Under the pieces are notes generated by a model. It was not told where the DNA came from, did not search any database, and saw nothing but the letters and a program-made list of their open reading frames with translations. Below, piece after piece: positions 1 through 42,175 of a stretch of 44,218 nt of DNA. The position numbers and the translations under genes were made by a program. The stretch is from Gammaproteobacteria bacterium. Its GTDB lineage: Bacteria; Pseudomonadota; Gammaproteobacteria; Thiohalospirales; Thiohalospiraceae. The DNA lies in assembly GCA_015491735.1 (NCBI GenBank), contig WFVH01000083.1:1-44218 (forward strand), read 5' to 3'. How positions within the stretch are numbered: position 1 is the stretch's first letter; each line of letters begins with the position of its first letter.

Positions 1-150
1 AACTATTCAGCTCACCCCTGAAATCCGCCATTTCTGCGTTGAAAAATGGTCATTTACACGCGTAAACTCCCATTTTTCGCCTTGAACTGACGAATTTCAG
101 GGGCAATCTGAACAGTTACCGGCTTGTTTCATACTATGCTGAATAGTTAC
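1..150 (+). mobile_element. MITE copy A (IS66-like ends), left 2 nt cut by window edge
   Basis: The sequence starts at the third base of the terminal repeat GTAACTATTCAGC and ends with its inverse GCTGAATAGTTAC. Inside is an imperfect palindrome with outer arms CCCCTGAAAT / ATTTCAGGGG and inner arms around GAAAAATGG / CCATTTTTC, then an inner end copy CTGAACAGTTAC at about 109-120. It differs from the copy at 32567-32718 by one base over the shared length. It stops immediately before the yicC Shine-Dalgarno GAGGAG. No coding capacity is evident. Assignment to IS66 rests on the GTAA end and the 8-bp duplications at other copies. Confidence 0.85.
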
Positions 151-7201: not shown

Positions 7202-7205
7202 ATAA
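7194..7205 (-). repeat. Short motif HTATTRACCCGG, copy 1
   Basis: Reads TTATTAACCCGG on the minus strand. It overlaps the outer end of the decayed MITE at 7202-7312, on the 3' side of ubiT. Confidence 0.5.
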
Positions 7206-7312
7206 CTATTCAGCAAGCCGCAAATTTTTATGGTAGCTGCCCGGTTTCCGCATTGAGTAAATGATCAATTACACGCGGAAATGGTGGATTTCAGGGGCCG
7301 TCCGAGTAGTCT
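7202..7312 (-). mobile_element. Decayed MITE copy E
   Basis: It begins ATAACTATTCAG, matching 11 of 12 bases of the family end. About 19 bases later comes a degraded inner end (GTAGCTGCCCGG), then GTAAATGATC and GAAATGGTGGATTTCAGGGG, which match the right part of the element at 41924-42076. The left half of the central palindrome is missing and the right end (CCGAGTAGTCTG) is degenerate. No target duplication is recognisable. It is in the reverse orientation relative to the copy at 1-150. Confidence 0.7.
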
Positions 7313-14388: not shown

Positions 14389-14539
14389 ATAACTACCCGG
14401 TAAATTGCAAACTTCATGGTAACTGCCCAGACGGCCCCTGAAATCCGTCAGTTCAAGGCGAGAAATGCGAGTTTGGGCGTAAATGACCATTTTTTTCATC
14501 GCGGAAATTGCGGGCTTCAGGGGCAGTCCGGGTTCAAAA
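14389..14539 (-). mobile_element. Decayed MITE copy F, between gmd and fcl
   Basis: It aligns along its whole length with the element at 41924-42076. The outer end is ATAACTACCCGG, then 18 bases later an inner end GTAACTGCCCAG, then GCCCCTGAAATCCGTCAG, TTCAAGGCGAGAAATG, GTAAATGACCATTTTT and CTTCAGGGG. The right end is degenerate (CCGGGTTC) and no target duplication is seen. It is an old insertion in the gmd-fcl intercistronic gap. Confidence 0.75.
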
Positions 14540-22371: not shown

Positions 22372-22398
22372 CCCCTGTAGTTGTATTAATAAAAAACA

Positions 22399-22470
22399 AT
22401 GGTAACTATTCAGCTCCCCCCCGAAATCCGCCATTTCTGCGTTGAAAAATGGTCATTTACACGCGCGTAA
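22399..22470 (+). other. Decoy 23-codon frame opened by the duplicated rlmH start codon
   Basis: The left copy of the target duplication AAACAATG keeps the original ATG. It now reads into the MITE for 23 codons (MVTIQLPPEIRHF and on) to a TAA. If the old rlmH translation signal still works, this short peptide would be made instead of RlmH from that site. There is no evidence that it is functional. Confidence 0.3.
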
Positions 22471-22607
22471 ACTCCCATTTTTCGCCTTGAACTGACGAAT
22501 TTCAGGGGCAATCTGAACAGTTGCCGGCTTGTTTCATACGATGCTGAATAGTTACTGCAGATGAAGCCCAATGTCGCTGATCGTTGTGGAATGGGCTGAA
22601 TAGTTAC
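22402..22607 (+). mobile_element. MITE copy B, extended form (206 bp) with 8-bp target duplication
   Basis: It starts GTAACTATTCAGC and has three right-end-like sequences: CTGAACAGTTGC (inner, about 22513-22524), GCTGAATAGTTAC ending at 22555, and a further GCTGAATAGTTAC at 22595-22607. The 8-bp AAACAATG occurs directly before the left end (22394-22401) and directly after the last right end (22608-22615), so the whole 206-bp unit moved as one. The extra 52 bases (22556-22607) are not in the other copies. It inserted at the rlmH start codon. Confidence 0.9.
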
Positions 22608-22612
22608 AAACA

Positions 22613-23080
22613 ATGAAGATCCATCTTTTGGCTGTTGGAACCCGCATGCCGGAGTGGGTGCGGCATGGATTTGACGAATATGCCGGTCGACTGCCGCCGG
22701 AGTGCCGGTTGCAACTGGTGGAGATTCCCGCGGGCAGGCGGGGAAAAGGGGCGGATCTGTCCCGCCTGGTAAAACAGGAGGGAGAGCGTATCTGTGCAGC
22801 GATTCCCAAGGGGGCGATGGTCATCGCACTGGAACTGCACGGGCAGGCATGGGATACCCCGCAACTGGCAAAAAAGCTGAAAGGGTGGTTGCAGGGTGGA
22901 CGGGATGTGGCGCTGCTGGTTGGGGGGCCGGAAGGGTTGGCCGCGGAGTGCCTCGCCCGCGCCGACATCACCTGGTCGTTATCCCCCCTTACGCTGCCGC
23001 ACCCGCTGGTGCGCATTGTGGTGGCCGAGCAGCTGTACCGCAGTTGGTCGATCCTCCAGCGCCACCCCTACCATCGTTGA
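22613..23080 (+). CDS. rlmH: 23S rRNA (pseudouridine1915-N3)-methyltransferase RlmH
   Basis: A SPOUT methyltransferase of 155 residues, the exact family length, that methylates pseudouridine 1915 in helix 69 of 23S rRNA. Family segments are [16 protein letters not shown] at the start, LLVGGPEGL (cofactor site) and the end [14 protein letters not shown]. The ATG at 22613-22615 is the last three bases of a MITE target duplication, so all sequence further than five bases upstream is now transposon. No good ribosome binding site is visible there. The frame itself is intact. Confidence 0.95.
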
Positions 23081-32566: not shown

Positions 32567-32718
32567 GTAACTATTCAGCTCACCCCTGAAATCCGCCATT
32601 TCTGCGTTGAAAAATGGTCATTTACAGGCGTAAACTCCCATTTTTCGCCTTGAACTGACGAATTTCAGGGGCAATCTGAACAGTTACCGGCTTGTTTCAT
32701 ACTATGCTGAATAGTTAC
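32567..32718 (+). mobile_element. MITE copy C (152 bp, complete)
   Basis: Perfect 13-bp terminal inverted repeats GTAACTATTCAGC / GCTGAATAGTTAC (the right one from 32706), central imperfect palindrome and inner end CTGAACAGTTAC at 32678-32689. It lies between two convergent genes, 8 bases from one stop codon and 21 from the other. No target duplication is visible (flanks TCGGGGGC and ATATATTG differ), so it may have arisen by recombination or lost one flank. Confidence 0.9.
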
Positions 32719-38151: not shown

Positions 38152-38225
38152 TGGAGCGGGTGATGGGAATCGAACCCACGTCATCAGCTTGGGAAGCTGA
38201 GGTTCTACCATTGAACTACACCCGC
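38152..38225 (-). tRNA. tRNA-Gly (anticodon CCC)
   Basis: A 74-nt cloverleaf with encoded CCA. The acceptor GCGGGTG pairs with CACCCGC and the discriminator is T. The anticodon stem TCAGC/GCTGA encloses loop TTCCCAA, so the anticodon is CCC (reads GGG). The T-arm has GGTTCGATTCC. It lies between the DHH gene and thiS, opposite in strand to thiS. Confidence 0.95.
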
Positions 38226-41051: not shown

Positions 41052-41927
41052 ATGTCCGTAGAACATCCAGTTGTCGCTGTGACCGGTTCCTCCGGCGCGG
41101 GTACCACCACCGTAAAAAATGCCTTTGAGCATATTTTCCATCGCGAGGGAATTACTCCCCTGGTAATGGAAGGTGACAGTTTTCACAAGTATGATCGCGC
41201 CGAGATGAAACGGGCCATCAAGGAGTATGCGGCAAAGGGCAAGACCATCAGCCATTTTGGTCCGGAAGCCAATCTGTTCGGAAAGCTGGAAGAGACATTC
41301 AAAACCTACGCTGAAACGGGAGGTTGCAAGCGCCGCTTCTATCTGCACAGCGACGAAGAGGCGGAACCTTATGGCCAGAAACCGGGTGAGTTCACCCCGT
41401 GGGAGGCGATCGAGCCCGGTACTTCCGATCTGCTGTTCTACGAAGGTTTGCATGGCGGGGTGGTCGCTGGCGATGTGGATGTCAGCAAACATGTGGATCT
41501 GCTGGTGGGAGTGGTGCCCATCGTCAACCTGGAGTGGATCCAGAAGATCTTCCGGGATCATGGGCAGCGCGGTTATGCGCCGGAAGTCATCGTGGAGACC
41601 ATTTTGCGGCGGATGCCCGATTATGTGAACTACATTACTCCGCAGTTCTCCCGCACCCACATCAATTTCCAGCGCGTGCCAACGGTTGATACCTCCAATC
41701 CGTTCATTGCGCGGGACATTCCCACCCCTGATGAAAGCTTCGTCGTGATCCGCTTCCGTTATCCCAAGGGGGTGGATTTTCCCTATCTGCTTAACATGAT
41801 CGACGGCTCTTTTATGTCGCGGCCGAATACTATCGTTGTGCCCGGCGGTAAAATGGGGTTCGCCATGGAGGTGGTGTTGACGCCTGTTATCCACGAGTTG
41901 ATTGAAAAAAAGAAAAAGAGTGGGTAA
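41052..41927 (+). CDS. prkB: Phosphoribulokinase
   Basis: Makes ribulose 1,5-bisphosphate from ribulose 5-phosphate and ATP, the step that commits to the Calvin cycle. It has 291 residues of the proteobacterial class I type. The P-loop is GSSGAGTTT at 12-20; EGDSFHKYDR and the FYEGLHGG region (walker B-like) follow. GGGAGAG precedes the ATG. The stop codon TAA is supplied by the first bases of a MITE; the pre-insertion codons were GGA TAG, so the protein is unchanged. No other Calvin-cycle gene lies in the window. Confidence 0.96.
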   Translation: MSVEHPVVAVTGSSGAGTTTVKNAFEHIFHREGITPLVMEGDSFHKYDRAEMKRAIKEYAAKGKTISHFGPEANLFGKLEETFKTYAETGGCKRRFYLHSDEEAEPYGQKPGEFTPWEAIEPGTSDLLFYEGLHGGVVAGDVDVSKHVDLLVGVVPIVNLEWIQKIFRDHGQRGYAPEVIVETILRRMPDYVNYITPQFSRTHINFQRVPTVDTSNPFIARDIPTPDESFVVIRFRYPKGVDFPYLLNMIDGSFMSRPNTIVVPGGKMGFAMEVVLTPVIHELIEKKKKSG

Positions 41928-42076
41928 CTATTCAGCCATAGTATGAAACAAGCCGGTAACTGTTCAGATTGCCCCTGAAATTCGTCAGTTCAAGGCGAAA
42001 AATGGGAGTTTACGTGTGTAAATGACCATTTTTCAACGCAGAAATGGCGGATTTCAGGGGTGAGCTGAATAGTTAC
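41924..42076 (-). mobile_element. MITE copy D (153 bp, complete) with 8-bp target duplication
   Basis: Inverse orientation of the copy at 32567-32718, near-identical, with intact GTAACTATTCAGC ends. AAGAGTGG occurs exactly on both sides (41916-41923 and 42077-42084). The left terminus GTAA gives the in-frame stop of the phosphoribulokinase gene. There is one extra G beside the outer end relative to copy C, and CGTGTGTAAAT-type changes at the palindrome loop. Confidence 0.92.
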
Positions 42077-42175
42077 AAGAGTGGATAGAAGGCGGCCGGG
42101 CAGGGTGAAACGCCGGCGTGCGCCGGCATTTCCGGCAAGAAATTCTGGAAAAGAGACATTCAGGGGATTTGAACA

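Follow-up and report, generated by a model that had tools for sequence, protein, structure and literature searches.

We refer to the whole 44,218-nt stretch of DNA analysed here as the window. A BLAST search with the family consensus located four good and two decayed copies of a MITE in it. The good copies lie at 1–150 (copy A), 22402–22607, 32567–32718 (copy C) and 41924–42076 (copy D), exactly where a first-pass annotation of the sequence had placed them, with BLAST identities of 96.1–100%. The decayed copies, at 14418–14523 (minus strand, 83% identity over 108 bp) and at about 7203–7297 (heavily decayed, with partial matches to the core and a near-exact copy of the 13-bp end at 7202), complete the six that the annotation had counted in 44 kb. 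The 13-bp end, GTAACTATTCAGC, had 16 matches in the window with up to two mismatches against 0.40 expected, and none of 100 shuffled sequences reached this number. Copy A (plus strand, 152-bp type) shows 100% identity to the genome consensus along its 150 bases; the contig starts inside the repeat, so that two bases are missing from the start of the copy, and for this position it was kept out of the target-duplication comparison. No Rfam family was matched by any of the MITE copies in the window. The sole RNA family match in the window was a tRNA-Gly (CCC) gene on the minus strand at 38152–38225.

The element at 22402–22607 (plus strand) had been flagged as a MITE copy, which holds for its first 154 bp (22402–22555; 96.1% identity to the consensus by BLAST) but not for its last 52 bp. 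This tail (22556–22607, minus strand) shares homology with the right end of IS66 elements of the ISBst12 group. It is identical to such right ends at 44 of 52 positions in a sister genome (G002) and at 39 of 52 in a full-length element (L201, see below), and past the 13-bp end the similarity exceeds that of all 500 shuffled sequences. The 13-bp ends stand at the outer borders of the 206 bp, and the 8-bp target duplication AAACAATG lies outside them, at 22394–22401 and at 22608–22615, where its ATG serves as the rlmH start codon. The MITE part has no matching duplication at its own right border. Because the duplication encloses all 206 bp, the MITE left end and the IS66 right end must have been used together, in one transposition. 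The chimera is the strongest sequence evidence presented here that a single kind of transposase handles both ends, and forms a natural record of the two kinds of end working together. When the full 93-bp junction was used as a query, the window copy was the only match in eight genomes of the genus.

Copies C (plus strand, 152 bp) and D (minus strand, 153 bp) show 99.3% and 98.7% identity to the consensus, respectively (BLAST). Copy C contains an imperfect palindromic (hairpin) core at 32583–32671 (plus strand), followed at 32675–32687 (minus strand) by the inner right end GTAACTGTTCAGA, which forms the border of a 121-bp form of the element; no target duplication was found in its flanks, TCGGGGGC and ATATATTG. 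Copy D is flanked by exact copies of AAGAGTGG at 41916–41923 and 42077–42084. It and the chimera are the two copies for which exact 8-bp duplications had been reported, and both duplications are indeed exact. Copy D also supplies a new TAA stop to the phosphoribulokinase-family gene at 41052–41927, leaving the end of the encoded protein unchanged.

In the whole genome (2.43 Mb), the exact 13-mer occurred 348 times (172 + 176), while its reversed control did not occur at all. An independent pattern for the central palindrome of the element, with one mismatch allowed, gave 174 occurrences, half the number of ends, which puts the family at ~174 copies and ~1% of the genome. The standard unit is 152 bp long with perfect 13-bp inverted ends and consists of the left end, an imperfect palindrome of ~90 bp, the inner right end (position 121) and, after a tail of 31 bp, the outer right end. 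The anatomy first described from the window (perfect ends, central imperfect palindrome, inner end copy) was therefore confirmed in the 152-bp unit, which, as had been noted, carries no gene and is too short for a transposase gene. Many contig starts and ends, including window positions 1–150, coincide with MITE copies, indicating that this repeat interrupts the draft assembly.

Copy statistics were obtained from sampled stretches around copies rather than from the whole genome. Among 49 sampled units of 150–156 bp, 38 were flanked by exact 8-bp target duplications and 42 by duplications with at most one mismatch. Two of the remaining seven are inner borders of larger, duplication-flanked units, namely the 206-bp unit of the window and a unit of 176 bp in which three ends are stacked. 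The median divergence from the consensus was only 2 bases in the 41 copies of exactly 152 bp. This means a recent burst and upholds the earlier suggestion of recent activity. The duplications revealed no clear target motif, only a mild A+T preference (55% versus 43% in the window). Insertion sites fell in open frames of at least 500 nt in 17 of 39 cases, compared with 59 of 78 for control positions at a distance of 350 bp.

The element also occurs in other sizes. Deletion forms of 100 bp and 62 bp are both flanked by exact duplications, as is, in another genome (L239), a 121-bp unit bounded by the inner end. The sequences of the 206-bp chimera, this 121-bp unit and the stacked 176-bp form suggest that the element changes size through the use of successive neighbouring ends. 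On Fusicatenibacter sp. contigs (L089 and L042), a different MITE family sharing the 13-bp end has an extra inner GTAACTATTCA-type end near one border, an instance of stacked ends from another phylum.

To compare insertion sites with those of relatives, the insertion was removed in silico and the resulting junction was aligned. The rsfS–rlmH junction without the insertion aligned unbroken in five sister species (G001, G002, G003, G004 and G006), and the end of the phosphoribulokinase-family gene was element-free in the several relatives aligned. Empty sites were thus present at both window insertions compared. The annotation had named beforehand a lack of empty sites, a lack of a matching full-length insertion sequence and confinement of the copies to conserved loci as observations against mobility; the loci are empty elsewhere, so the copies are not so confined, and full-length elements exist, as described below. 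The search for the end in relatives, which it had also proposed, detected the MITE family in all seven sister species and in a genome from another family of the same class (G020). More distant gammaproteobacteria carry the family with variant ends such as GTAACTACTCAGC, which an IS66 element (L202) likewise has at its left end. A 42-base stretch of the core had no match in viral contigs. Being short and gene-less, with inverted ends, target duplications, near-identical copies and empty sites, the repeats represent a new MITE family that is well supported and of a known kind.

The genome of the window contained a single IS66 transposase match, on contig C39, and this gene is broken. The fossil carries DUF6444 and DDE_Tnp_IS66 (PF03050) domains, and its transposase begins 276 bp inward of a left end that matches GTAACTATTCAGC exactly. 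The IS66 part ends after ~245 codons, where sequence with a Y1 transposase gene begins. Repeats of CACATGGGGTCAGGTCTTG lie ahead of this Y1 (RAYT-like) gene (L009:1857–2699), by which the genome's one IS66 transposase is interrupted. Within the draft genome, no intact IS66 transposase was detected; as the assembly breaks at repeats, an intact partner may be missing from the draft.

The search for a full IS66 element with the same ends had been proposed as a further check. Full elements with the same or nearly the same ends were found in other gammaproteobacteria, and only the broken copy, with the same left end, in the genome itself. The full element L203 spans 1722 bp; it has a 484-aa frame, ends in GTAACCATTCAGC on the left and right, and is flanked on each side by AATTTTTT. 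L201, which is 81% identical to the C39 fossil, is 1727 bp long with a 487-aa frame and the ends GTAACTATTCAGC and GTAACCATTCAGC. An Oceanisphaera plasmid carries L200, which measures 1570 bp and has GTAACTATTCAGC at both ends and a shorter open frame. No matching duplication was found in the examined flanks of L201 and L200. Since the full elements carry one gene, encoding an IS66 DDE transposase, and L203 combines GTAA-type ends with an 8-bp duplication, the partner belongs to the ISBst12 group and not to the tnpA/tnpB/tnpC type; consistently, TnpB_IS66 (PF05717) had no match in the window's genome. The original IS66 reading is therefore sustained by the same or nearly the same ends and the 8-bp duplications, but the three-gene type that it envisaged gives way to single-gene ISBst12. 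Past the ends, the interior of the MITE showed no similarity to known partner interiors, the single exception being the 52-bp tail of the chimera.

Several other IS66 matches were considered. The PF03050 matches in the sister genomes G004 and G006 (L119, L120, L122, L187 and L188) were rejected as partners because they lack these ends, and L188 looks like another IS66 type. An IS66 transposase region at 2402–3229 of L199 (Halomonas plasmid NZ_CP040453.1) shows 55% identity to the C39 fossil; there is no annotated gene under the match, and its left end is GTAACTATTCAGG.

Taken together, the window very probably carries members of a ~174-copy, 152-bp gene-less MITE family that was spread in trans by an ISBst12-type IS66 transposase and whose ends are reused as borders. 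In this mechanism, which we infer from the sequences, the IS66-type DDE transposase of an autonomous ISBst12-type element would have recognised the ends and inserted copies with an 8-bp duplication, so that mobilisation in trans is attributed to the transposase of a same-ended element. The family multiplied recently to ~174 copies. Any correctly oriented end beside a copy could serve as a new border, giving the 121-, 152-, 176- and 206-bp forms, and at 22402–22607 a MITE left end was paired with an IS66 right end. As only a broken transposase gene is left, the family may now be stalled, unless an intact partner is hidden by the draft assembly.

The palindromic core is strongly structured. When copy C was folded whole as single-stranded DNA, the z score was −6.4 and none of 200 shuffled sequences was as stable. 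Across the family, both sides had changed with pairing kept at 18 of 33 stem pairs, compared with 6.0 ± 1.9 in shuffles and at most 11 in slid controls. Either selection or quasi-palindrome correction during replication could keep the stem paired. The centre of the palindrome, AAAAATGNTCATTTAC-N4-GTAAACTCACATTTTTCGCC (family alignment columns 45–87; window 32609–32647 in copy C), is well conserved across families, including an asymmetric stem mismatch, and may be a protein-binding site.

We then scanned ~85,000 genomes for exact ends at 100–130 bp spacing. Among the matches listed, 82 elements were extracted; by record titles, these matches came from Gammaproteobacteria, Deltaproteobacteria, Bacteroidetes, Lachnospiraceae, Clostridia, Spirochaetia, Nitrospirota and Anammoxibacter. 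Of these 82 elements, 61 were flanked by an 8-bp duplication containing no more than one mismatch. Together with the window's own family, they fell into at least 24 groups, between which no similarity of the cores was detectable. After removal of the ends, 20 of 25 core representatives (one group being represented twice) had z scores below −3; the corresponding numbers were 3 of 49 for flanks and 1 of 75 for random stretches. MITEs that form stem-loops are commonly known (PMC10969869), whereas one fixed end around so many unrelated palindromes is apparently undescribed, within the literature searched.

Two other origins were weighed against transposition by an ISBst12-type enzyme, and both are highly improbable. 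The first would make the copies REP/REPIN-type palindromes spread by the genome's Y1 (RAYT-like) transposase. A Y1_Tnp gene is present, inside the IS66 fossil itself, and the element has a strong palindromic core; against this, the 13-bp terminal repeats of the units are shared with IS66 elements, and the target duplications seen in 42 of 49 units also exclude membership of the REP/REPIN class with a RAYT. Y1/HUH transposition is not known to produce target duplications or to use long inverted terminal repeats. Conserved regulatory or terminator hairpins, held at fixed sites by selection rather than mobile, would fit the bias of the sites away from long frames and the conserved hairpin pairing. 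This account, which we regard as hardly tenable, is contradicted for the origin of the copies by the empty loci in relatives, the target duplications and the near-identical copies at unrelated loci. Single copies may nevertheless have acquired a regulatory role later.

A further proposal adds to the preferred reading, that of a MITE spread by an ISBst12-type transposase, instead of replacing it: the hairpin core would be a required part, for example by holding the ends together or shielding neighbouring genes from read-through, and unrelated palindromes would have been repeatedly recruited between ISBst12-type ends. The occurrence of the same end with 24 unrelated core groups in several phyla, the excess of stable cores over flanks and random stretches, and the paired stem changes all favour this addition. 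However, MITEs that are palindromic and give stem-loop transcripts are generally widespread (PMC10969869), quasi-palindrome correction during replication can keep the arms complementary without selection, and the 62-bp and 100-bp derivatives, in which the core is mostly or partly deleted, still have exact duplications. We consider such recruitment rather doubtful. The broader hypothesis, that the end GTAACTATTCAGC independently gained unrelated palindromic cores in several phyla, that the hairpin is needed for or favours the spread of 130–155-bp elements, and that sizes shift via neighbouring ends including those of the parent IS, is likewise only tentative. The unrelated hairpin cores behind one 13-bp end in several phyla make the role of the core in MITE success directly testable.

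The exact 13-mer was absent from the open-access literature searched, and no description of an IS66-family MITE was found there, subscription papers being outside the search. Thiomargarita MITEs were considered as a possible match, but the elements in that paper differ. For the ISBst12 group itself, transposition has been observed with ISDge4 of Deinococcus, which encodes a 449-aa transposase, generates an 8-bp duplication and has ends, GTGACTACTCAGCA and GTAACTGCTCAGCA, that closely resemble those described here (PMC12898284, 2026). The window family shares with this group ends of the form GTAACTRYTCAGC and the 8-bp target duplication, but has no gene and is 152 bp long, as opposed to about 1.6–1.7 kb. 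The ISBst12-type partners found here encode a single transposase of ~485 aa, with DUF6444 and DDE_Tnp_IS66 domains in the C39 fossil.

Among miniature elements, MITECca01 of Cardinium resembles the window family as a short, gene-less IS derivative with ~170 copies in one genome, mostly intergenic; unlike it, MITECca01 is derived from IS982, and its genome keeps intact parental copies (PMC9769881). The Chunjie MITE of Geobacter uraniireducens is likewise short and mostly intergenic, with terminal and direct repeats and one copy in an operon, but measures 178–235 bp; the likeness concerns the features given in the review's description, IS66 kinship aside (PMC10969869). The TIMEs belong to the Tn3 family, in contrast to the elements described here, and are similarly miniature elements reported to make mosaic non-autonomous transposons (PMC4133298).
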